A stretch of 18,286 bases of DNA, from positions 1 to 18,286 of the forward strand of contig JAHLKH010000348.1 in NCBI GenBank assembly GCA_025526915.1, read 5' to 3'. The translations under genes and the position numbers were made by a program. The stretch comes from Entophlyctis helioformis (taxonomy: Eukaryota; Chytridiomycota; Chytridiomycetes; Chytridiales; Chytriomycetaceae). Below, one piece after another: positions 2,753-18,286 of this stretch. The notes beneath the pieces are model-generated. The model was not told where the DNA came from, did no database searches, and was given only the letters and a program-made list of their open reading frames with translations. Positions within the stretch are counted from its first letter, which is position 1, and every line of letters starts with the position of its first letter.

Positions 2753-2815
2753 CAAATGGACTCTCGTATGGGGGGTAGTATAGTAGACCCTTCCTGCGGT
2801 TCTCATACCATTACC

Positions 2816-2957
2816 CCTGGTGGAATATTCCTGATTGGTCAATCCTGGTGGAATCGCTGTGATTGGTCAACTCCTGGTGGAATCGCTGTGATTGGTCAAC
2901 TCTGGTGGAATCGCTGTGATTGGCCGATCCTGGTGGAATCGCTGTGATTGGTCGATC
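2816..2957. repeat. Five-copy 28/29-bp tandem repeat, each with an inverted CCAAT box
   Basis: Copies start near 2817, 2845, 2874, 2902 and 2930. The core is CTGGTGGAATCGCTGTGATT followed by GGTC plus a variable AAC/GAT end; the first copy is the most divergent. Each unit contains ATTGG, the reverse complement of CCAAT, at a fixed phase. CCAAT is the site of the HAP/NF-Y complex in fungi, so the array could be an upstream activating region for a gene to either side. It could equally be a simple minisatellite. Confidence 0.75.
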
Positions 2958-2969
2958 TAGAGAGCCCTT

Positions 2970-2989
2970 GCGCAGTGCTGACACTGCGC
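2970..2989. repeat. Inverted repeat, 8-bp arms
   Basis: GCGCAGTG, a four-base CTGA loop and CACTGCGC form a perfect hairpin 12 bp after the CCAAT repeat array. A part of the arm (CAGTG/CACTG) also appears in the third hairpin of the cluster at 2690-2708. Confidence 0.65.
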
Positions 2990-2990
2990 G

Positions 2991-4153
2991 ATGCGAGCAC
3001 AGCAACAACGCGCCATGCCAGATCCAGACGCTGCTGCACTTGCCGCCCAACTGCACACAAGCAACAACGAGCCAAACGACAACGACGCACGACGCAGGCG
3101 ACAGCACGGATATGGGACAGCACTCGCTTGCTGGACGAGTCCTTCGGGGAGACTGCGAGGCTCACTGCTCAAGGTGGCATGCAGCAGGCATCCAGCAGGC
3201 CATGCAGCAGAGCAGCGTGGTCGTGGCCGTCTGAGAGGCGTGCCCAACAAGGCGGGCGGACAGAAGGCAGGCTGCAGACAGGCAAGCAGGTGCGTTGACT
3301 CGCTGTCTGTCCAGGCATGCTCCATTGCCATTGACGACGACGGCACAGCAGTCTGACGGCCGTGTCTGTGTTGTCTTGGCACTGACTGCGTGCTGTCTGA
3401 TGGCTCCAAACAGCAAGGACGTTGGCAAGACGGCCGTGAACAGGGCGATCTGGTTGTTGTTCAAGAGGACAGCGAGAGCATTGGCATCGCAGGACTGAGC
3501 TGCCTGGTGCTTTCCGACTGCGACATGGGATGCAGCAGCAGCAATGAGCAGCCACTGAGACGTGCTCAATGGACCGATCCTTGGAGTTGGCTGCAGGAAC
3601 TGCTTGCTGGACAGCTGGATTGGCATGCCGACTTGGATGCCAAACAAGACAGTGGCAGCACACTCGGCGAGCGCACACTCGACGACACTGATCCAGGCGA
3701 GATTGGTGAGGAGGACGCGAGTGCTGGCAGGCGTGTCTGGCCACATTGCACTTGGTGTGATGGCATCTTGGATGCGATCCACTGAGCAGCACATGGAGTG
3801 GCCAGACAGACAGACCATGCACTCTCCATTCATTCAACAACCACAATGACGATGATGATGGCGATGATCCTGACGATCACAGTCTTGCATGCACTGTGTT
3901 TGTTGACAAGGACAATCCAGAGCAGAGGGGCGATGCAGGCAGTGCGCCAACGGCCAAACTGTCCATGGACCAGCTGGCCAGTCAGGCAACACCAACTGCA
4001 TCACACTGGGTCACAATGCAGATGCATATCAGGACGATTGTTGGATGCAGTGGGACATTGACTGAGAAGACGACACTCGGAGAGAGGCTCGCTGCAATGC
4101 AGCTCATGACACGCAGAGTGATGCTGCACAGTGCATATCAAGCTGCGCACTGA
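2991..4153 (+). pseudogene. Possible decayed coding region, unrecognised
   Basis: Three stretches look more protein-like than their surroundings. From the ATG at 2991 or 3015 there is a hydrophilic N-terminus (MPDPDAAALAAQLHTSNNEP). From 3390 there is an open frame of 131 codons with an acidic region (DDTDPGEIGEEDAS). From about 3800 a different frame carries a poly-Asp stretch (NDDDDGDDPDDHSLA) and stays open to a TGA at 4151-4153. The step from the second frame to the third needs one missing base near 3780. The same kind of 1-nt loss is seen repeatedly in the genes downstream. No domain was recognised. It may be upstream exons of the nuclease gene at 4900, an independent gene remnant, or noncoding DNA. 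Confidence 0.25.
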
Positions 4154-4381
4154 GTGGCATCACATCAATGACTGTGCCAGCAACGCATGACCACACCTTG
4201 AACGCCTGGCTGTTGGCTGTGCTCGCTGCTCCCTTGATGGCTGTTGGACAGTGGGCGGCGAGTGCCAGACTGCTCGCTCTCTATCCACTCACTCTCTGTT
4301 TTCATGCAATGAAAGTTCAACTCTGCCCATCAGATCTGATCAAAGCGCGCCACTTTGGAACGCGCCGTGTTTGCTGCCCAG

Positions 4382-4390
4382 ACACACACC

Positions 4391-4463
<73 letters not shown>

Positions 4464-4471
4464 ACACACAC
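4382..4471. repeat. CA dinucleotide microsatellite
   Basis: About 90 bp of near-pure CA, interrupted by AA near 4391 and by CC twice (ACCACA). It is read as poly His-Thr in two frames, which is an artefact. Confidence 0.95.
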
Positions 4472-4832
4472 GCCCCATCACACGCACCAGCACCACACAA
4501 CATGACGGTCCGCTACTACTTGAAAATGCTCAAGCTAGGCTGTGCCGTCTGGCTCTACCTTGCTGGCACAGCACTCAGCCAGGTCGTGCAGCACGTGGTC
4601 CACAGCACACTGCAGCAACAGCAACCAGCAACAACAGCAACAGCAACAGCCACCGCAGCAACAGCGACCAGCAACAACAGACGACTCATCAGCAGCATGT
4701 ACACATTGACGTTGTAGCACTGGGTTCCAGGCGGACTTGCGGGGTGCAGGGGCAGTGAGTATGCACGCGAGGAAGGGCGGGCAGACGATGCAAGACGGGG
4801 CAACCAGAGCGGGGGACCGGGCGATGTCTGTC

Positions 4833-4855
4833 CGGTCACGTGGATCACGTGACCG
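4833..4855. promoter_or_regulatory. Perfect 10-bp-arm palindrome with two CACGTG E-boxes
   Basis: CGGTCACGTG, the spacer GAT and CACGTGACCG form a perfect inverted repeat, giving two CACGTG sites at 4837-4842 and 4846-4851. CACGTG is bound by basic helix-loop-helix factors such as fungal Cbf1 and Pho4. The pair lies 45 bp before the first supported exon of the nuclease gene, so a promoter or intronic regulatory role is possible. The function is inferred. Confidence 0.45.
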
Positions 4856-4899
4856 ACCGAGCATCCGTTACAGACGTGCTAAGCGTATTCTACTTGCAG

Positions 4900-7624
4900 C
4901 TCATTGCCACAGCATCGTTCAGCTTGCCCAACTCCAAGGATGCCTGGAAGGCCATTGTCAAGCCGGCCGTCGAGCTGTTCATGGTGTCAGTCGGCGACGG
5001 CCACACCATCAAATTCCATGTCGACGGTCGCTGCGGAGACGTGGGAATCAAGATTGAGCACCGACACCGCGCACTCAAGATGCTGCATGCGGCGGTCAAG
5101 GTCCTGCGGTATGCGTTCCGCCGTCAAGAATACAAGCAGATTGGGTTGATGACCAAGTAGGTTTGCTACTCTCTACTGTGTGGCTGCCTTACTAACCATC
5201 TTCTGCTGTTGGCCACTCAGAAAGGAGACCCATGCTCTCGGCCGATTTTTCACATTGACGCAGACAGATAAGCGGCACATCGTTGAGGCCCTCAACGAGC
5301 TTGTTGGCAAAAAGAAGGGATGCATGGTCTGCTGGTGTGATATGAGGCTGATGTATGCATTGCCCGCCATGTTCACAAGCCAAGGTAACATTGCCTTGGA
5401 TCATTCTGCCATGACTGATGGCTCACAGTCTCCATTTCATGACAGTGACAAGCCAGTCGTTGTTGTCTCCAATGACTCTGATCTGGTTGCTCATTGTGCT
5501 GGTCAATGTGGTGTCGTTGTGACCCACTTGCAGCATGGGCGGTTAACCAGCCTCGCTCATACAACCATGGCGGTATCGCCTCAACCGCGTCTGCATTGGG
5601 CGTGCGGGATTTTTGCGGTGCATGTCAGGGTGTTGCAGCGTTTTCTCATACAGACTTTTTTGGCCGCAATCGCCATGGTGAGTTGCTGCGCCTGTTTTGT
5701 TGTCTGTCATGACTCACATGCCATTTGTTGTCTTCATGTGTGATTCTGCTTGTATTGCCTTCAGGGATCGCGGCCGCTGCCAAGTTCATTAACGCGTGGT
5801 TCAATCGCAAGGCGGCCAAGTTGGATGGCAAGGAGGCCGAGCTCTATAGAAAACTCGAGACTCCTGAAGAGGCCAAGGTGTTCATGTATGACCTCAGGGA
5901 CGCGTACATCAAGGACTTGGCCAAGAGTCATGACAAGAGCCTCATACCAATGTTCAAGAACACATTCTCGGTCTTTGTCGACCAAATCGAGCCCAAAGTG
6001 CCAGTTGGCACGACTGCAGCCCCGATTGTCGCAAGGCAAGTCTATTCTGAAGGATTTATGGACATATTGGCATTGACACGATTGCATGCCTTGCACAGAT
6101 CTGGGCCTCAACAAGGCAATGCCAACCACATGTATGTCAACGTGACAGCCTCGGCTGGAGCCAAGTATGCATGCATGCCATCTGTGGTGTTTCTGCAAAA
6201 ACTGACATGGCTTTCCTGTTTCTGATGCTGCGATCTTGTTATTGTGCAGGTGCTCATCGCCTGGTTGCTGTTTGATCCATACCGCACAGCAGCTGCAGCA
6301 GCAAGCCAAGACTGGTGTCCCACCTGTCCACTTGACGAGCGATCGCGTCAAACAGCTTGCCAATGGCATTGTTGCCAGCAGGCGGCTGGATGTGGCATTC
6401 AAGGAGGTCAATGGCTGCCACGTGGCATTGGACGCCATCATAGAGCAAACAGTTGATCTCCTTGCGAGCAAGTATGATGGAGTCACTAGCCGTGACATCC
6501 TCGCAGCCATCTGCAGGGCGGCTAGTGCACAGCTGCTGCAGATTGTGCGCGAGCAGTCCATCGAGCCAGATGATTACATGGTGCTCAGTAAGGCGGATCA
6601 GATGATTTGGCATGCTTTTGTAAGTTGCTGCACGGCTTGGATGCATGCCGTTGCTCTTGCACCACACACAGTTGTTGATCTTGAATGTGACTGACTCGAT
6701 CCATTGCTCCTGGACAGACTGTTGCTCCAAGAATGAAGACGCAGCTGGATGAGATCGTGCATCCACAAAATGCCCCCTTCCGGCATACAGCCACTCCAAG
6801 TATATTCTGCTTGCATTGAAATGGTTGATGCAATCCACTCACAGTGCCGTTTTTGTTGAATGTGCTATTGCAGATACAGGCAAGAAGAAGACCGAGTACC
6901 GCGGACGGATCAGCACAAGAGTGGCGCCGGCAGACACGTTTGCAGTTATCCATGATGAGGCCACAAACCTGCTGAATGACTTGAATGGCCTCAAGAATCG
7001 ACGTATCAGCAAGGGCAATTCAATCACCTCGTCAATCAGCGGCAAACGGCCATTGCCCTGCTGCAGAAAGTCATTGAGCAAGCCGCCGTGCGTCTCATCT
7101 TCCACTGACAGTGTGTGCCTGTACTGATTTGGCACGATTGCTGATCATTCTACTCCCAGGCTGGTCCTCCTCCACCGCTGCCCAAGTCATCTGACAACGA
7201 TCGCCCTGAACAAGCAAACCGCAAGAAACTTCTCGTTGGTGTACTTGATGACACTAATACGACGGTAGGTTACAGGGCACCGTTGGTGATTGTGACTGTG
7301 TTGCGTGCACAAGGAAGGGATGCCTGATGCTGCATCCAACCACGGCAGGCGCCATTCCAATTCTCTGAGGAGACAGAGGCTGCACATGCAAAGGAGAATG
7401 CCGAGCGAGCTGAGAAGGCTGCGACCGAGAATACCATCAAGAAAAACAAGAAGAAGTCAGGGCGACGCCACCGGAAGGCCCCATCTCCAACAACGACAAG
7501 CACGTAAGTGGCAGATGGCATGCTGCGAGCCCTGATTGTGCTTGCTGACATGGATTCTGCTGGTAGACACGAATATCATGATAGATGGGCACACATCTGG
7601 ATGTTGCGGGCAATTGCTGCGTGA
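4900..7624 (+). CDS. FEN1/XPG-like (PIN-like) nuclease gene upstream of Fanzor; 5' end unresolved, two apparent frameshifts
   Basis: Exons 4900-5156, 5221-5677, 5765-6035, 6099-6164, 6250-6619, 6718-6799, 6874-7087, 7160-7264, 7349-7503 and 7567-7624 (stop TGA) join in phase, about 610 codons. The intron after 6035 is GC-AG (AG/GCAAGT); the intron after 5156 has a CTAAC branch site. Motifs in order: FHVDGRCGDVGIKIEHRHRA, like the FEN/XPG N-region (FDG..P..K..E..R); CMVCWCDMRLMYALPAM, at the place of the I-region EAD motif; VVVVSNDSDLVAH, like the acidic DSDL strand; then ALGVRDFCGAC, like the GCDY/H3TH region. The C-terminal third is helical, ending in a Lys/Glu-rich, coiled-coil-like exon. 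Two joins need a lost base: between 5490 and 5550 (a 32- or 38-nt intron is the alternative) and near 7010-7018. The first exon begins at a splice acceptor, so the start lies upstream. The last two exons recur before the second Fanzor. Family assignment is by motif only. Confidence 0.55.
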
Positions 7625-7725
7625 CATCAGGGCCAGTCCAGACAGTCAATGGGGTCCTCAAAGTCAAAACACCAGACAGTCGGAAAAACGTGCAGCATCA
7701 TCGCAAAGCACCAAAGTACAAGGAT

Positions 7726-7839
7726 GAGGACAAGAGCAACAGCAAGGCAAGCAAGAGCAAGAGCAAGAGCAAGAGCAAGAGCAAGAGCAAGGGCAAGGCA
7801 AGGGCAAGGGCAAGGATGAGGATGAGGATGAGGATGAGG
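7726..7839 (+). repeat. Coding microsatellite: AAGAGC and GATGAG hexamers
   Basis: About seven AAGAGC units, then AAGGGC variants, then four GATGAG units, within the first Fanzor exon of the plus copy. One unit is 5 nt rather than 6 (about 7790-7804). It switches the frame from poly Lys-Ser to an Asp/Glu run (DEDEDEDEAQHNS), which is the frame that joins the next exon. The minus copy has no such repeat. Confidence 0.85.
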
Positions 7840-10800
7840 CACAGCATAACAGCCGTGTTATGATTGTGGATCTGGCGGTATGGGGTTTGGTTGCCATGTT
7901 GCTCTGGATGCTTGGTGTTGTGAGGCTGACTGGTGCACTCGTGAAATGAGCAGGAGATGCTGTCAAACAAGCCAGAGTATACAAAGTATTTGGGACCCAT
8001 ACCAAGACACCACTGGCCAAGCAGACGGCCATTTCAGTCAGAAAGGACGCCCTCCTGACGGTGTACGATTACACAGCCGGCCTCTTGTGTGCTGTCCTCG
8101 CATTGATCGGCGCGATAGTCGAGGTTCTTGTCAAGCTCAGCCCAGATGCGCCACTGCCACTTGACTACTGCGTGATGCAAGTCACTAGTGGCAGTGTGAA
8201 AACATACTACTACATCAACCCAGACGACCTCGGCGAGGGCAAGGGCACGATGCAGACAACGGGCAGGTGCATCCTCCAAGAGCGCATCGATGCATGGCTG
8301 ATGTATGGCACAGGACCACATAGCAGCGACACGAAGATCCTCGCTATGGCAGTTTGGTGCCTCTCGAGTGCGACACGGTGCTTGAGATCTGCACCTTTGC
8401 AAATGCATCGCAGACTGTGGCAGCAACAGCAGCAACAGCAGCCAGCAGCGCCGGTGCACCATTGCCAGCCGCCCAGCCGCCAGCAGTCCCAACTGCAAAT
8501 GAGCTGCTCACGGCGCTCACCAGCAGCACGTCTGGTGGCGAGGGTGCTTTGGACATGCTGCTATATCACATTGGATACATCATGGCGGATGATAAGATGG
8601 TCCAGCCGCATGCGATCAAGTACCCTGTCCACTGCTGGATGTCACCGTGATGCAGCTGATCATACATCGGACATGGAGACGGAAGGAGGGGCAGGTGGAC
8701 GCAACACAGCAGGCATCCGCAGCACAGAAAACCACACGGCAAGCAGCGACATGGAAAGCAGGCACGCGGAAGTCAATCTCACGGACAGCACGCGTGCAGC
8801 AGACAGCGACAACCAAGGCCAATAAGTTCCAGTTGGCTGTGGAGCAGGCAAATGCAGATCTGTCTGCCTTGATGCAGAAGAGTGCACCAACGGCAGACGC
8901 TGCGCACGCGGACACTATGGAGGCTGTCCTGCCCTACAGGCTTGATAGCAGCCTTTGTGCAAAAGCAAGGCATGACATCTACAGCAACCTTGCATGCGAC
9001 GTCGGCCGCATGCTGGCCACCCATTTTATGACCAACCAGTCCAAGCTGTTGGTTGATGCAGCTCACAGCCTGGTGCAGGGTGCGTCTGCCAAGGATGTTG
9101 ACAGGTGGATCGGGATCATTAAGAAGGCCGCCGAGGATGCCAAGCATGCCGCCGCCGAGGATGCCAAACGCACTGCTGCCGAGGTCGCCACACCAAGCCC
9201 ACCGACACGCAAGAAACAAAGGCGCAAAGGGCCAGCATCAACCACACCACCGGCCACTGAGGACGCCTCACTAGACGCTGCTCAAGACGCTGCCCCTCCT
9301 GCCTCGGGTCTCAAGCACGACCGGTCCACCTCTTCATCAGCCACCAACAGTGCCAAACCCAAGAGGCAACGGCGCAGGAGGGACAAGGCCACCACCGCGG
9401 CCGCGACACCCAGCACTCTGCCAGCCACAGACAACGGCGGTCTTGATACAATCCCGCAAGCATTGCATGTGCTTGTGCCAATCTTGAGCAATGCGTCACT
9501 CTCAGAGATCAGGATCTTTTACGAGCTGCGCAAGCTTGCTGTTGGCACAACAATCAAGTTGTGCCCTGAGGCGGCGAGCCGCGACCCGTTCATCCTCATT
9601 ACTGAGGCCACCCTCTTTTGGGCGGTAATGGGGACCACGGATGAGCGCAAGAATGGCAAGCAGAGTAATGCTTTGCAGACATTGCGACTGCAGCTTCTGG
9701 ATGCACTCAGTAGGTCGCACTTGTTTATGTCATGTTTACATGATATGATGCTGACACTGCACTTTTATCCAAGACTACAAAGATGAAGACTTGGAGCTTG
9801 AGACGCCCAATAGCATGATCCAAGACGCATTCAGCATAAGTCAAGAGCTCTGTGTTCTCGACGTCCTGCTTCCCGGCCTCCGCCCCGAGAAAGGTCGCTT
9901 CCAGACCCCTGCACAAGCCAAAGATGAGATGGACGCGGTTGCCAAGGCCACAGCCAAGGCGACGCAAGAGGCTGACAAGCAGGGGTTGGTTGGCAAGGAG
10001 CGCGAGGAGCATATCAAGGCTGCGATTGATGCGGCACGTCCAGCAAAACGGACCAAGGCAATCCTGACAGGCAGCGTCAGGACGGATGGATACAGCATCT
10101 TTCAACTGGCTCTCAATGGCCGCACAGACCGTCCAGAGTCACCTTGCTGTATGTGGCGTGCTTGGATGCGATGGCGCACACATGGATTCTGACTGCCGCC
10201 TTGCTCTGCATGCTCCAATCTGGTGTCTTCAGGCCAGCAGCCGTGGGTTGATGATGATGATTCTGATTCTGATGATGATGATGATGGGCATGATGGGCAT
10301 GATCACATGGATGGCACATGTGAGTTGCTGTGCCATTATGACGCACACTTGGCACCAGCAGCAACTGACATGCCATCCACAGCCACCAAGCCAAAAGCAA
10401 CCAATCCTGTAAGCCACTTGCATGCCAACCTCGCGCATTGGTGCACATGCATTGCCCATTCCTCACTCATGTCATGACACGACAGGCCCAGCGCAACTTT
10501 TACGCCTCGCAGCGACTGTGCAACATCATCAACGCCAACAATCTGTTCACTGACCAAGGCTACCAGACTGTTCGCGTTGTCAGCTTTGATTGGGGCCAGC
10601 GGTACCTGTATGGCGCATCCAGTATCTTGGTTGATCTCAGAGACTTTTCGTATAAGCTCGAGTCCAACTATGTGCTCGCCTCTGGCATGGCACATGCTGA
10701 GCGCATCTTTCAGGACTGGTATGCATGCAATGACTCTGCCACACACACTCTTGACCAGATCAACTCACAGTGCCTGCCTCCTGTGCCAGGTTCAACAATC

Positions 10801-11323
10801 GATATGCCAAGGCAGCCGACGTCCAGGCGGCCATTGCATTCAAGACAGCAAAGCATGCTGATCCAGGCGTCTCAGCAGGCGAGAGAGCGTTTTGGGATCT
10901 ATGCTGCCGTGCGTACTGCTCGCCATTCCTGAATGCACGGGTACGTTTTCTCTGTATCTGGATGCCCATTGCCATGGCCGCCATGCTGCTTGATCGCCTG
11001 CTGATTGCACTGGACGGCATGGCATGGCATGGCATTCCACAGAAGGTCAAGGCCAAGCGGTTCACCAAGCGCAGCAACAGCACGTCTATTCGCGGAAACG
11101 CTCTTGAGGGCATCATGAAGCTGGCAGGCTCGACCACTGGAGAGCGCGCATCTGCTGCGTCTCAAGGCCGCTGTGACAAGCCAACAGAGAAGGACATTCC
11201 CGTTGTCTGGGCATTTGGCATCAACTTTACAGGTCAAGGTGGCCGGCACGCTGTGTTTGAGAGGTTTCTCATCAGGCATCTGCGGTCGTCTGGATATGCC
11301 TATGTGCGTCTGATGCCACGCTG

Positions 11324-11344
11324 TCCATCCATCCATCCATCCAT
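11324..11344 (+). repeat. CCAT tetranucleotide repeat in Fanzor intron 8 (plus copy)
   Basis: Five CCAT units lie in the last intron (11304-11388), followed by a CA run that ends directly in the splice acceptor CACACACAG, with no pyrimidine tract. The minus copy has the same arrangement at 14715-14736, so the repeat predates the duplication. Confidence 0.85.
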
Positions 11345-11658
11345 CTGTGCACCAACTGACACACACGATCATGCACACACACACACAGATCTACCGCTGC
11401 AACGAGAACCTCACCAGCCAGATGTGCCCGCAGTGCAAGCAGCGGATCCCATACAAGAACCGCACCAACCTGCGACGCTACGAGTGCACAGCATGCAAGG
11501 CCGTCTACCACCGAGACGTGCTTGGAGCCACCAACATCGGGATGGTCGCACTGGGGCATCTGCTCTATGGACAACGGCCTCTCTACTTGACGCACACGCC
11601 AGTCAATCCGCCTGTCAACAGCGTGCCAGCAAGTCAAGTGCCACTCCACATGCTCTGA

Positions 11659-11887
11659 CTTCCAGCACAACCACTAACACTTTGAATCGGGGGACCTCCC
11701 GATCGACCTAACAGGTCACTTTTTCTAACAATATAGGTGAGCACTTCGTTGGATGTGCCTCGCCCACTTGTCGTCGCATGCTCGTTGCTGACTCGAACCT
11801 TCAATCACGTGATATGCGGGCATGCATTCGTCGCTTCTCGGGTCGAATCCAATTCCAAAACGCTTGGCAATTGTTTGAATGTCGGGC
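11659..11887 (+). ncRNA. Candidate Fanzor omega-RNA / right-end region, plus copy
   Basis: This block directly after the Fanzor stop is strongly conserved with 14179-13988 on the minus strand and then the similarity stops abruptly near TCGGGCC. It begins with a hairpin (ATCGGG 11686-11691, CCCGAT 11698-11703), followed by a divergent 40 bp and a well-conserved core containing CGTTGGATGTGCCTCGCCC and GTTGCTGACTCGAACCTTC. In characterised Fanzor and TnpB loci the guide RNA scaffold is transcribed from the 3' end of the gene and its downstream flank, ending at the element boundary. By position and conservation this is the best candidate; transcription is not shown by sequence alone. It also carries a CACGTG at 11806-11811. 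Confidence 0.35.
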
Positions 11888-11997
11888 CATTTGCCGGCGG
11901 TTTGCCGGCAATCCCTCGCCCTATTGCCCACCCCTCGGTCAGGTTGATCGAAATCGTTGCCAATGGCACAAATGCCACTTGAAAGATGATCTCACGT
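11888..11997. other. Short spacer between Fanzor right end and Brr6/Brl1 stop, with hairpin
   Basis: A perfect 8-bp inverted repeat (TTGCCGGC 11891-11898, GCCGGCAA 11904-11911, 5-nt loop) lies just past the end of the shared Fanzor block and about 90 bp beyond the Brr6/Brl1 stop codon. It may act as a transcript end signal or mark the element boundary. It is absent from the other copy. Confidence 0.5.
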
Positions 11998-13873
11998 TCA
12001 TTCACTGTCACTTCCGAGATCGTCAAGACGTCTGCGGCCACTGCTGCTTCCGTGCCGTCTATGAGAAGTATGCGGTTCACCTGCCAAACGCCTGGCCAAG
12101 CCGCGATGTTCTCCTGGATGGCCAGCAAACGGAGACCGAGAAGGAGATGCAGCAGACCGTGACGATCCGTATCTCAGTGCCTGCCGTGAACTGAGCGGCG
12201 ATTCATATGGAGACAAGGCTGGCGGGTGGTGGTGGTGGTGGATGGTTGCGGGCACAAATGGTGGCGTGCCTAGATGCGTGCCCATGCTGCTGTCCATTCC
12301 AAGAGCCAGACCCGACGTGTTCGTCCCGGCGACCAAAGTGCCGTGCGCTGACGGAGATGGGCGAGCACGAAGGAACGAGAGCGCTGAGCTTGTGAGCATC
12401 AGCGTGCCGAATAAAGTCAGTGTGCCAAAGATCTAGGCGGGAACAGGCCAAACGCAGCAACGTCAGCAAGCCAGCCAGCCACGAACGCACTGAAATGGAC
12501 CAACGCAGCATCACAAAAGGAATGTGCACGCACCATGGTTTTGTATGACAATGGCTCGACAAGCTTGTTAAGAATCTCAGCGAGCGTTTCAGCGCCGACT
12601 TTCAGCCTGCAAGCCCGTTGCGAAGGTGTCAGCGGTCGGCTCGAGTCAAGTCGGAATACATTCGAGCGAGCTCTACCGGCCTTACCGCCCCACTTCCTTG
12701 GGATCGCGGCCCATACAAATCTCCCATTCCTTGCAAAAGGCTTCCACGGCAGGCACGCGCTCGCCAGGCATGCATCGATTGGTGTAGTACGCCTTTGTGC
12801 ATTCAGCAACCTGGTGCGTAATTTCTGCAGGTAGAGCGTTCAATGATAAGGATCAGCGAAAGAGCAGTTGACTGGCTGTGCATTCTGCACCATCATTGCA
12901 ACTTACCTATCGAATATTCCTCGGCCTTGAGCTGAAGGTCGTGCTGTACGGATGCCATAAACTGGATAACCAAGTATGTCACGATGCCCACAACAAAGAG
13001 CGTAAAGGTCACTTGAATGTATCCAGTGATGAGGAACGGCAAGTGGATCCAGTGCACGCCTATCGATACGGCTGGCTTTGCTCCCTGATCTTCTGTTGCA
13101 AAGCTGTGACGACTCGGGCCACGGCTCCATCCGATCCACTTGGGATGGCGAGCATCATCTTCAACGGCCAGGTCGTCGCTGCTGTAGCCGTTGTCGCTAT
13201 GGCGGCTGGATGCGAGGACCTTTTTGCGTTTTCGGCTGCGTGACGGTGTCGCTTCGTGATCTTGCTGATCGTGGCCATCCAGTGGGGCAACGGACGGCTT
13301 GTCAGACTCAATCTTGGCGGCTGGCGTTGGTGATAACGCTGACGCCGATGCTGGTGCCGATGACGCCTTTGGCGCCGAATGCGCCAGTCGATCCTGCCCA
13401 GCGCCGACGCTCGTCTTGGTGCTGGCAGTGTTGCTTGCACCAAAGCGAAACACGCTTGCTGCGTTGGGCGAGACCCATGTGCCGCCGGTTGACGAGAACA
13501 GTTCGCCGGCCTGTGTCTGGTTGAGAGCCGCAGCCCCACGGATCGGAGAGGCGAACTGCATCTGCTGCATCTGTTGCTGCTTCTGTTGCTGCTGCTTCTG
13601 CTGCATCGTCACAGCCATGAGCCAAGGCTTGTGCTCGTCGACCGTCAAGTCCGAAGTGTTCTCAAAGTCCATCGGCGCCTCGGTGCCTCTGCTAAAGGTG
13701 CCGCCAAAGCCAGCAAACGACTTTTGCGGAGTTGCTTCCAGCCTTGCGCCATGGCCCATAGTGGCTTGCTCTGTCCTGTATGTGGTGCTGTATGTGGTGC
13801 CCAGGGCGGCCGCCTGCTGGTGGGCCAGTTGGTGCTGCCGCTGGCGTTTGGCGGTGTCTGAAGACGAGAGCAT
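11998..13873 (-). CDS. Brr6/Brl1-family nuclear envelope protein
   Basis: Brr6/Brl1 proteins span the inner nuclear membrane, act in nuclear pore assembly and affect membrane lipid composition; they occur mainly in organisms with closed mitosis. Exons on the minus strand are 13873-12907, 12824-12686, 12606-12534 and 12432-11998 (stop TGA), in phase, 537 residues. The first 260 residues are polar and low-complexity with a Gln-rich run (near 13570-13605). Then comes the domain: first membrane segment with LITGYIQVTFTLFVVGIVTY; the lumenal loop with four cysteines typical of the family (ECTKAYYTNRCMPGERVPA, then EAFCKEWEICMGRDP); then ETLAEILNKLVEPLSYKTM and a second membrane segment starting IFGTLTLFGTLML. 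The C-terminal tail (about 110 residues) is Ser/Arg/His-rich with a His run. The gene shows no disruption, unlike the Fanzor units on both sides. I cannot tell Brr6 from Brl1 by sequence alone. Confidence 0.9.
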
Positions 13874-13987
13874 TGTGGATCGCGGCCCGGTTCACATACC
13901 TGCACCAACGACGCACAGCACGACATCTAGTCACGTGTGCTATCACGTGATTCGGATTCCACTTGGCTCTTTCCAAAAAACTTTTTC
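13874..13987 (-). promoter_or_regulatory. Brr6/Brl1 5' flank with paired CACGTG E-boxes
   Basis: Two CACGTG sites (13932-13937 and 13944-13949), each as TCACGTG and 12 bp apart, lie about 60-75 bp upstream of the Brr6/Brl1 start codon. They are likely binding sites for a Cbf1/Pho4-like bHLH factor in its promoter. The spacer between this gene and the Fanzor right end on this side is only about 115 bp, so the promoter is either contained here or overlaps the Fanzor downstream block. Confidence 0.5.
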
Positions 13988-14179
13988 GGCCCGATAAAGA
14001 TACAATTACCAAGCATTTTGGAGTTAAATTCGTCGCGAGAGGCGTCGAATAGATGCCCGCACATCACACGATGGAAGGTTCGAGTCAGCAACCAGCATGC
14101 GACGACAGGCGGGCGAGGCACATCCAACGAGATGCTCACCTTGCACCATTGTTTGAACAATGATGTGATAAGTGACCCG
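13988..14179 (-). ncRNA. Candidate Fanzor omega-RNA / right-end region, minus copy
   Basis: Reverse-strand counterpart of 11659-11887. After the stop codon the two copies share a conserved core (CGTTGGATGTGCCTCGCCC, then GTCGTCGCATGC and TTGCTGACTCGAACCTTC) and diverge at TCGGGCC. The ATCGGG/CCCGAT hairpin (14188-14193 and 14200-14205) is here inside the last codons of the longer Fanzor frame, so the candidate RNA would overlap the coding end, as known for TnpB and Fanzor guide RNAs. Conservation outside a reading frame is the evidence; the RNA itself is inferred. Confidence 0.35.
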
Positions 14180-14285
14180 TTAGGTCGATCGGGAGGTGCC
14201 CCGATTCAAAGTGTTGGGGGTTGTGCTGGAAGTCAGAGCACGTGGAGTGGCACTTGACTTGCTGGCACGCTGTCTGCGTGTTGGA

Positions 14286-14456
14286 CGCTGCTGGACGACA
14301 GGCGGATCCGGTGCTGGACGCCGCTTGATGGCACGTCTTGGGCGCTGCTGGTCGACCGTCGGATCTGGTTCTAGACGTCGCTTGATGGCGTGTCTAGAAC
14401 GCTGCTGGACGACAGGCGGATCTGGTGCTGGAGGCTGCTGGACAACAGGCGGATCG
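14286..14456 (-). repeat. 57-bp tandem repeat encoding the Fanzor C-terminal tail
   Basis: Units start at 14286, 14343 and 14400 (on the plus strand each begins CGCTGCTGG), so each unit is exactly 19 codons. The encoded unit reads like PDPPVVQQRxRxAIKRR: a Pro/Gln stretch then a basic patch, which may bind nucleic acid or act as a nuclear localisation signal. The third unit is incomplete. The plus copy has lost this array. Confidence 0.8.
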
Positions 14457-14714
14457 ACTGGCGTGTGCGTCAAGTAGAGCGGCCGTTGTCCAAAGAGCAG
14501 ATGCTCCAGTGCGACCATTCCAATGTTGGTGGCTCCAAGCACGTCGCGGTGGTAGACGGTCGTGCATGGTATGCACTCGTAGCGTCGCAGGTTGGTGCGG
14601 TTCTTGTATGGGATCCGCTGCTTGCACTGCGGGCACATCTGGCTGGTGAGGTTCTCGTTGCAGCGGTAGATCTGTGTGTGTGTGTGCATGATCGTGTGTG
14701 TCAGTTGGTGCACA

Positions 14715-14736
14715 GATGGATGGATGGATGGATGGA
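14715..14736 (-). repeat. CCAT tetranucleotide repeat in Fanzor intron 8 (minus copy)
   Basis: Same position in the last intron (14756-14672) as in the plus copy, again with a CA run against the acceptor. Shared position supports common descent of the two units. Confidence 0.85.
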
Positions 14737-17700
14737 CAGCGTGGCATCAGACGCACATAGGCATATCCAGACGACCGCAGATGCCTGATGAGAAACCTCT
14801 CAAACACAGCGTGCCGGCCACCTTGACCTGTAAAGTTGATGCCAAATGCCCACACAACGGGAATGTCCTTCTCTGTTGGCTTGTCACAGCGGCCTTGAGA
14901 CGCAGCAGATGCGCGCTCTCCAGTGGTCGAGCCTGCCAGCTTCATGATGCCCTCAAGAGCGTTTCCGCGAATAGACGTGCTGTTGCTGCGCTTGGTGAAC
15001 CGCTTGGCCTTGACCTTCTGTGGAATGCCATGCCATGCCATGCCGTCCAGTGCAATCAGCAGGCGATCAAGCAGCATGGCGGCCGTGTCAATGGGCATCC
15101 AGATACAGAGAAAACGTACCGTGCATTCAGGAATGGCGTGCAGTACGCATGGCAGCGCAGATCCCAAAAGGCTCCCTCGCCTGCTGTGGCGTTTGGATCG
15201 GCATGCTTTGCTGTCTTGAATGCAATGGCTGCCTGGACGTCGGCTGCCTTGGCATATCGATTGTTGAACCTGGCACAGGAGGCAGGCACTGTGAGTTGAT
15301 CTGGTCAAGAGTGTGTGTGGCAGAGTCATTGCATGCATACCACCGCTGAAAGTCACGCTCAGCTTGAAACATGCCAGAGGAGAGCACGTAGTTGGACTCG
15401 AGCTTATACAAAAAGTCTCTGAGATCGACCAAGATGCTGGACGCGCCATACAGGTACCGCTGGCCCCAATCAAAGCTGACAACGCGAACAAAGTCCTTGT
15501 CAGTGAGCAGCTTGTTGGCATCAGCAACATCGGGCAGCCACTGGGATGCATTAAAGTTGCGCTGGGCCTGTCATGCCATGGCATGAGTGAGGAATGTGCA
15601 ATGCATGTGCACCAATGCGCGAGTTTAGCATGCAAGTAGCTTACAGGATTGGGCGTGTATGGCTTGGCGGCTGATGGGTCGGCTGGATCGGCGGCTGTGG
15701 ATGGCATGTCAGTCGGTGTGGACAACAAGTGCGCGTCTGGATTGGCACAACAACTCACATTCGCCGTTAATGTAATCGGGCTCGCCATCAGCCTCGTCAA
15801 CAAGCCACGGCTGCTCGCCTGAAGACGCTGCGTTGGGATCTGCAGATCAAGGCGGCAGTCAGAATCAATGTGTGCACCAAAGCATCCAAGCATGGCACAT
15901 ACTGCGAGGCGACTCTGGACGGTCTGCGCGGCAGTCCAGAGCCAGCTGGTAGATGCTGTATCCATCCGTCATGATGCTGCCAAGTAGGATCGCCTTGGCT
16001 GGTCTTGCTGGACGCACAGCATCAATCGCAGCCTTGATATGCTTCTCGCGCTCCTTGCCATCCAGACCCTGCTCATCGGCCTCTCACGTCGCCTTGGCTG
16101 TGGCCTTGGTAACCGTGTCCATCTCATCTTTGGCTTCTGAAGATGTCTGGAAGCGACCTTTCTTGGGGCGGAGACCTGGGAGAAGGATGTCAAAGATGGA
16201 AACCTCGCGACTTGCGCTGAATGCGTCTTGGATGTCCTTGTTGGATGATGCAAGAGCTGACTTGGCATCTTCATAGCCTTGGAGAAAAGTGCAGAGTCAG
16301 CATCAAATTGTGTACACATGGCATATACAGGCAGTGCGACCAACCAAGTGCAGCCAGAAGCTGTAGTCTCAATGCCTGCAAAGCAGGATCCTGATTGCCA
16401 CGGATGCGCTCATCCTTTGTCCTCATCACCGCCCAAAAGAGGGTGGTCTCAGTAATGAGGACAAACGGATCGCGGCCTGCAGGCTGTGGACACAACTTGA
16501 GGGATGAGCCTGCGAGATCACACAACTGCTTGAACTTGCCGGCCTCTGACAGCGACTTGTTGCGCACGACCGCCGTGAGCCTGTGCAGTGCTTGTGGGAT
16601 CTTGACAATGCGTCCGTCTTGTCTGGTCGACAGTGGCGTGCCAGACGTGGCATCCCCAGTGGCTGTATCCATTGCCTTGGCAAATTCCGCTGCCTTGTCA
16701 GCAGATATACCAGGAATCAGTCGGTGGATTGCCCAGTCAATGAGCATCGGCTGGTGGGTCATGAAGTGCACAGCAAGCATGCCACAGATGCCCCGTGCCA
16801 GATTTTTGTAGATGTCGTTCCGAGCAGCTGCACACAAACTGTCGTCAAGCCTGCCAGGCAAAACGGCATGCATCATGCTTGCGTCCATGTGAACAATGGC
16901 TGACAGCAATGAGCCGGCCTGCGTCGCGTCCATCTTGGCTGCCCGCGCCACACCAGCTCGCATCTTGGTCATGCTGTCCCGGATCATCTGCTGCGTCCAT
17001 TCGCGGTTGATGATCATCTGCATGACCGTCACGATCCACGAGTGGGCCACATGCTTTGTTGCCCGCGGCATGACCGACTCCTGACCGGTGAGAATGTAGC
17101 CCAGGTATCGCAGAAGCATCGTGACGGCTCCCTCGCCACTAGAGGTGCTGTTTGTGAGCACCTTGAGCAGATCATTTGCCGATGGTACTGCCCGTTGTAG
17201 TGGTGGCTCGATGGCTGGTGGTTGGGCATCGGTGCTGCTGGATGCGGCGGCTACTGCTGCTGGTGCTGCTGTTGCTACTGCTGGTGCTGTGTCGTCGGTG
17301 AAGGTGCAGATCTTGACCATTGTGCCCACCTCAAGTCTCACCAAGTCGCCATAGTGAGCAATGTCGGTGTTGCTGCAGAGCGGGCCTTCGCCATACATGC
17401 GCCGGGCATTAACTGGCCATCTGAGGACGCATCCAGCGGCGTAGAGCCATGCGCTCTCGTCCTTGAGGTCATCAGGATCAATAAAGACATATTCCATCTC
17501 ACCATTCCTCCTGGCCTCCATGATGCAGAACTTGAGTGGCAGCGGTGCATATGGGTCGAGTGCGATGAGCTCTTTGACGATGGCGCCAATCATAGTGATG
17601 CATGCACGCCGCACGTCGGCCGTGTATCGGTACACGCCATTGAAGATGCTTTCTGAGACCGAACCGCGGGTCTGTGTTGCCGGCGCCGTCTTGGCCTGGT

Positions 17701-17913
17701 GTCCAAAATACTTTGCAAGCATTGGATCTCCAGAGAGCATTTCCTGTATGTAGCACAAGTCAACATACACAAAGCCAGACATGCAGAGCAACATGGCAAT
17801 CCAAACTCATACCTCCATTTTGACAATCTGCTCAGGGCGATCGTATGTGCTCTCCACTGGCCTTGCCTCATTGCCATGGATGGCAGCAGCAGCTGTCATG
17901 ACTGGCAATGCCA

Positions 17914-18286
17914 TCATCGGTGGATCTTTTCAAGCATCTGCTCTATCGCCGATCTTTCACCACGCTCATATCTGTCAAAGAACGCACCAGTCAGCACACA
18001 CACTCAAGGCACATTCCATGCCATATGCCACTTACGCCCGTGTCTCGTCCTCAGATGGAGCCTGGCGGGCTTGCCTGCTTGCATCCTTCTTGTGCTCCTG
18101 GATGAACTTCTTGGTCTTGGCCTTCTCAGCTTGCTCAGCTCGCTCCTTATCACGCTCAGCCCTGCATGGCCGGTGTGGACCAGGTATGGATCCTGCCGTG
18201 GTTGAATGCAATGTTAGGCATGCATCTTGAATGTGCACAAGATGCTCGCAATCACAAGCCTGCAGTTCAACTCACAGTCGTCCTTT
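17914..18286 (-). CDS. FEN/XPG-like nuclease gene, second copy, 3' end only
   Basis: Two full exons and part of a third are visible on the minus strand: 18286-18276 (partial, followed by a GTGAGT donor), 18192-18036 and 17971-17914 (stop TGA 17916-17914). The middle exon encodes a Lys/Glu-rich helix (AERDKERAEQAEKAKTKKF) matching the coiled-coil-like exon at 7349-7503 in the plus unit, and both are followed by a GTAAGTGG donor. The last exon ends QMLEKIHR, aligned with the plus end WMLRAIAA. The nuclease domains themselves would lie beyond the window, so the family name is carried over from the plus copy. The stop codon overlaps the Fanzor start as ATGA. Confidence 0.5.

Follow-up and report, generated by a model that had tools for sequence, protein, structure and literature searches.

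What a Fanzor, an RNA-guided nuclease, might do with a second nuclease encoded directly upstream of it is the question raised by an 18,286-nucleotide stretch of DNA (hereafter the window) from the chytrid Entophlyctis helioformis (Chytriomycetaceae), which is contig C348 of an assembly of 29,569,594 bases in 482 contigs. A sequence-only reading of the window had proposed that a gene resembling the flap endonuclease (FEN)/XPG nucleases travels with Fanzor as a two-gene unit at 4900-11887, perhaps processing the DNA ends or flaps that Fanzor makes. The motifs quoted in that reading are present, with the nuclease upstream of Fanzor on the same strand, and the last exons of a homologous nuclease gene were confirmed upstream of a second Fanzor, on the minus strand, in a copy cut by the contig end; the window carries two copies of one element type, tail to tail (elements 1 and 2). 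The reading that we prefer, with a probability of about 0.6, is that of a terminal inverted repeat (TIR) transposon encoding a FEN-Fanzor fusion, the FEN part of which would trim the cuts made by Fanzor. At the level of sequence and predicted models, from one species, it is supported by the ends of the element, the recurrence of the pairing, conserved acidic residues, purifying selection and a fused reading frame that is open in three families (see below).

A search of the genome with nuclease exon 3 (150 of 158 candidates scored) gave 146 distinct nuclease loci, and searches with the Fanzor RuvC-I exon (150 of 202 candidates scored) and zinc-finger domain (150 of 205 scored) together gave 196 Fanzor loci. 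At 93 of the 146 nuclease loci, a Fanzor marker follows on the same strand less than 9 kb downstream, whereas the reverse order was found at 0; in 59 of 62 pairs, nuclease exon 3 and the zinc-finger exon lie 5.1-6.7 kb apart. Because the order is this consistent and the spacing constant, the pairing is real and far beyond chance, and the recurrence of the nuclease beside Fanzor in one mobile element is borne out. The nuclease also lies at most 4.5 kb inside 65 of 86 left element ends, and outside none of them. Unpaired were 53 nuclease loci and 103 of the 196 Fanzor loci; Fanzors with no nuclease in reach do occur in this genome and are partly explained, the minority of unpaired loci looked at being accounted for by contig ends, candidates beyond those scored, disturbed elements (such as C25) and deletion derivatives (such as the short C199 and C35). 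A class of elements seemingly devoid of the nuclease was suggested by 35 left ends first left unmatched, and was abandoned: the three that were read (C141, C18 and C7) all carry a divergent nuclease. After the exon 3 search, 21 of the 86 left ends are still without a nuclease match, and at C25 no nuclease is present in the 1.8 kb read, where the sequence, judged by eye, departs from the usual leader. Such disturbed elements, and the location of many copies near contig ends, could be taken to mean that the adjacency arose by nested insertion or by misassembly of unrelated repeats; constant spacing and order, shared ends and zero counts in the controls argue otherwise, and this explanation, contradicted by the genome-wide counts, is in our view next to impossible.

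The pairing does lie inside a mobile unit, as proposed, but the unit extends beyond 4900-11887: when aligned with three other copies, element 1 has its boundaries at about 2797 and 11888. The ends form imperfect terminal inverted repeats (left end, GGCCCGGTTCTCATACCATTACC; complement of the right end, GGCCCGATATTCATACAATTACC); the inner part of the left repeat occupies 2797-2817 (+), and the outer GGCC that other copies show is disrupted in this one. With up to two mismatches, the left terminus occurs at 86 places in the genome and the right terminus at 175, the reversed control pattern giving 0 in both cases. Pairing of the ends, which covered all 86 left ends and 100 of the 175 right ends, yielded 35 intervals, 24 of them at 7.2-9.8 kb, one at 2.2 kb and ten at 10.7-20.6 kb. 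Of 20 elements for which both flanks could be read, 11 have a matching flank word of at least 8 nt, compared with 1 of 380 mismatched pairs; by reading, the 20 comprise seven 8-bp duplications, three 11-nt matches, one offset match and nine without a match. Judged by these ends and flanks, the element is a multicopy TIR DNA transposon, mostly of 7-10 kb and usually with an 8-bp target duplication. Element 1 joins the common left end to the longer of two right-end types, an extension found by alignment in that type only (11889-11935, +), and would end at about 11935 if the longer type is counted. Repeats of 28 bp adjoin the left end (2813-2951, +; found by repeat search), and the unit is present at all eight other left ends read, and repeated in seven.

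The downstream part of the gene is Fanzor1-like, as judged from its motifs. Eight exons (8788-9709, 9774-10148, 10233-10319, 10383-10408, 10486-10718, 10790-10940, 11043-11303 and 11389-11658, all +) are open in element 1 and encode 774 residues with no internal stop; the preceding N-terminal region (7954-8787, +) contains frame changes in this copy. The TnpB-type zinc-finger/RuvC-III family PF07282 is matched above its cut-off in both window Fanzors, at 11353-11538 (+) and 14522-14707 (-), with an E-value of 9.9e-11 and 42.1 bits against a cut-off of 26.3 for a query containing the 8788-11658 part. The pattern that describes the moved catalytic Glu of Fanzor1, ExxxxxxCxxCx(12,18)CxxCx(4,8)D (PMC10711439, in part), is found in the spliced window Fanzor, as is a TDG, possibly the motif reported for the WED domain of Fanzor1 (PMC10711439, in part). 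A sequence search of the PDB with a Fanzor piece returned three weak rows only. The roughly 230 non-coding bases that lead from the Fanzor stop to the right end (11660-11888, +; a candidate omega-RNA scaffold together with the right inverted repeat) show a mean column identity of 75% over 24 aligned copies, a strong conservation that is as expected for an omega-RNA. A consensus fold of this candidate showed compensatory changes in 0 of 35 pairs, and an Rfam scan of the window gave no match. The omega-RNA is presumed to come from this conserved 3' part of the element, with flanking host sequence serving as the guide.

The upstream part looks FEN/XPG-like. Its exons, with splice sites placed by eye, run from exon 1 (4502-5156, +; the start, a Q-rich stretch and the HVD and HVDG motifs) through exon 2 (5221-5384, +; D-x-EADxC) and exon 3 (5446-5677, +; NDSD) to a C-terminal half of about seven more exons within 5765-7503 (5765-6035, 6099-6164, 6250-6619, 6718-6799, 6874-7087, 7160-7264 and 7349-7503, all +). 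By eye, the frame of this copy is disturbed in exon 1 and shifted in exons 2 and 3, the EADxC motif being among several places affected. Over 30-35 loci, ordered acidic residues are kept almost always at six positions, which, by motif, we take to be those of the FEN1 active site; the position equivalent to D233, a seventh, was not located in the nuclease. Values of dN/dS (the ratio of non-synonymous to synonymous substitution rates) are mostly low, pointing to purifying selection on this part. The FEN/XPG superfamily typically starts with M-G-[IV]-x-G; this start is found in the F1, C10 and C7-type families, and the window's family has M-T-[VF]-x-G. The Pfam family XPG_I_2 was matched weakly by all seven members scanned (best E-value 3.6e-4; printed scores of 11.3-16 bits against a cut-off of 24.2), and none of these scores reached the curated cut-off. 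In the structure prediction proposed in the sequence-only reading, predicted model 1 resembles EXO1/FEN1, but model 2, from a gene model ten residues short, is ambiguous, with more rows, weak FEN support and no FEN chain among its 50 second-look rows.

In its ordered acidic motifs and in the predicted fold of model 1, the upstream part resembles the FEN/XPG superfamily (FEN1, EXO1, XPG/Rad2, T5 FEN and T4 RNase H); it differs in that some families have a Q-rich insert close to the N-terminus, in Pfam scores below the cut-off, in a helix-hairpin (H3TH) motif that was not recognised in it and in the fusion to Fanzor. Some of these traits would also suit an XPG-like domain that is not a nuclease and serves as a nucleic acid-binding part or scaffold, mainly anchoring Fanzor or its RNA, as the commonest Pfam match, XPG_I_2, includes non-catalytic members of the Mkt1/Asteroid kind and the helix-hairpin part is unrecognisable. 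We consider this improbable in view of the purifying selection and of the tested acidic positions, which are kept in nearly every copy. Relatives outside the species were not found in the protein, prokaryote and viral sequences searched. PDB searches by sequence gave no match for the nuclease in two cases and weak non-FEN rows only in a third, and NCBIfam gave weak unrelated matches only (best, recR, E-value 0.02). Protein searches, each scoring the roughly 8,000 candidates sharing most words, returned only this species or nothing, the first two being blind to proteins longer than about 758 and about 548 residues, respectively; prokaryote genome contigs and viral contigs also held no relative, this being the one eukaryote genome searched. 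Genome searches with the XPG_I_2 and XPG_I profiles gave matches at two and three places only, all outside these elements, so that this nuclease family escapes genome-wide profiles. One deposited protein (P0006) combines the nuclease start with what appears, by eye, to be a retrotransposon polyprotein.

Whether the two parts belong to one gene depends on the junction. In the window, a linker exon, lysine-rich and then acidic, lies at 7567-7877 (+) and is broken in element 1. Twelve junctions were compared, from the last nuclease intron through the linker exon to the first Fanzor intron, with boundaries placed by eye; GT-AG introns of 62-64 and 64-76 bases flanking the linker could be placed in all twelve. 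Five junctions are open and in phase on both sides: L043, which belongs to the window's family, L039, L040 and L041, which form one family, and C10, from a third, the linkers of the latter two families being composed differently. The open linkers are of 70, 92 or 54 codons, and with random codons the chance of an open, in-phase exon at these lengths is about 1%, 0.4% and 2.5%, odds that are not multiplicative, the families being related. The other seven junctions (both window copies, L044, C5, L042, C141 and C66) are broken at several different places and are off phase, or, in L044, have stops within its repeat. Since in the open copies a single frame runs through the linker exon, which is flanked on either side by introns at matching positions, nuclease and Fanzor are probably exons of one fusion gene; of the two-gene unit proposed before, the joint travel stands, and the division into two genes does not fit the open copies.

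Several copies would nevertheless be compatible with two distinct genes or one two-cistron transcript, with a nuclease stop close to the end of the last nuclease exon and an ATG belonging to Fanzor itself. Several have ATGs upstream of the Fanzor exon, the linker of the first window copy also has stops, and in the second the nuclease frame stops where a Fanzor-frame ATG sits. We did not adopt this overlap as a two-cistron design, as C10 has an otherwise very similar linker that is open and lacks that stop. Given three families with an open, in-phase linker, and flanking introns that could be placed at all twelve junctions, we regard two genes as unlikely, if still worth keeping in mind beside the fusion.

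The fusion gene is the only one recognised in the element, and neither the elements read by eye nor the eight leader and two antisense open reading frames (ORFs) scanned in the window copy yielded a recognisable transposase. Of the eight leader ORFs, seven were without a Pfam match and one had weak matches below the cut-off only, among them Aldolase_II (E-value 0.003), taken as chance. In the genome at large, KDZ transposases gave four matches at three places (C334, C271 and C396); MULE transposases gave none, with controls detected, and a search for hAT was uninformative, there being no match and the controls silent as well. These negative results for the elements read and for MULE would suit a fusion protein that is itself the mobilisation machinery, combining RNA-guided cutting with 5' flap processing and dispensing with a DDE transposase. 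Inverted repeats with 8-bp duplications, both present here, are typical of DDE transposases, and KDZ transposase sequences exist in the genome. Furthermore, the SpuFz1 elements are also without a transposase, and help in trans has been discussed for them (PMC10432273, in part). Self-mobilisation is accordingly very unlikely in our estimate.

In the FEN-Fanzor fusion that we favour, one spliced protein would comprise a FEN/XPG-like nuclease, a helical basic region, a charged linker and a Fanzor1-like nuclease. RNA-guided cleavage by Fanzor has been reported (PMC10432273, in part); here, like TnpB, Fanzor and its RNA would cut the guide-matching flank of the element, at a donor site that has been re-joined or lies on the sister. 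For the tethered FEN domain, the substrate could be the 5' strand at the break, a flap or the strand displaced in the R-loop; we infer end or flap processing as the role of the nuclease, in line with the earlier suggestion. Trimming of the 5' strand would favour repair from an intact, element-bearing sister over simple re-joining, and copy number would be kept or raised. Transposition itself would probably rely on a transposase supplied in trans, possibly of the KDZ type. A bolder proposal, that fusion and omega-RNA rather than a classical transposase drive the copying of the element by cleaving the target and determining how it is repaired, seems to us doubtful.

Related arrangements are known. 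SpuFz1 elements of another chytrid, Spizellomyces punctatus, have inverted-repeat ends with no transposase between them and RNA-only 'ghost' loci (PMC10432273, in part). The present elements are similar in that Fanzor lies between inverted-repeat ends with no transposase found and in that the short derivatives C199 and C35 resemble ghost loci; they differ from SpuFz1, described as one ORF within a locus of some 2.1 kb, in their many exons, their size and the N-terminal FEN-like domain. Eukaryotic TnpB-like proteins have been described in DNA transposons, some without a transposase (Bao and Jurka, 2013; PMC3627910, in part). Those elements likewise carry Fanzor inside a DNA transposon, but their companions are separate proteins, including GIY-YIG nucleases and methyltransferases, in place of the fused FEN-like part; a word search of the main text gave 0 occurrences of XPG, FEN or flap. 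Engineered fusions of Cas12a or IscB with T5 exonuclease, for which gains are reported (PMC11471210, in part), also tether an RNA-guided nuclease to a FEN-type enzyme; they are man-made, and the fusion here would be natural and transposon-borne. No Fanzor-XPG paper or FEN-Fanzor fusion was found among the papers listed in the literature searches, which left out the 2023 Science Advances Fanzor survey; none of the papers listed for the species or Fanzor names E. helioformis, and a word search of PMC12730594 gave no match. Within that literature the putative fusion would be an unreported variant of the Fanzor kind. If the joint protein is made, it would be a natural version of the exonuclease-armed gene scissors that engineers assemble. 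If selection keeps a second nuclease on the Fanzor chain, the break made by Fanzor would seem to need a set processing route, and about 146 related nuclease loci can be compared within one genome.

Several further features of the elements were seen. Between the left end and the nuclease, a leader (2818-4501, +) in which alignment and the Pfam scan of ORFs revealed no gene is 93% identical to L042 at 2849-4327, against 76% in the nuclease region of the same pair, which suggests that ends are exchanged between element families. A long CA repeat (4379-4470) lies just before the nuclease start and a shorter one (11340-11388) in the intron preceding the zinc-finger exon. Short derivatives retain both ends and the 3' RNA-like segment: L090 (C199:20584-22748, 2.16 kb), whose deletion junction falls, by eye, at the CA repeats of leader and intron, and L007 (C35, 989 bp), whose flanks are alike at seven of eight bases; C436 resembles a short derivative, judged by its coordinates. 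The two right-end types differ by about 47 bp, the longer in element 1 and the shorter in element 2, which occupies 13988-18286 (-) with its right end at 13988, followed by Fanzor, linker and the last nuclease exons up to the contig end. A host gene for a Brr6-like nuclear-envelope protein (12893-13891, -, continuing to about 12536) separates the two elements, whose tails face each other across it; the hand-spliced protein matches PF10104 with an E-value of 2e-37.
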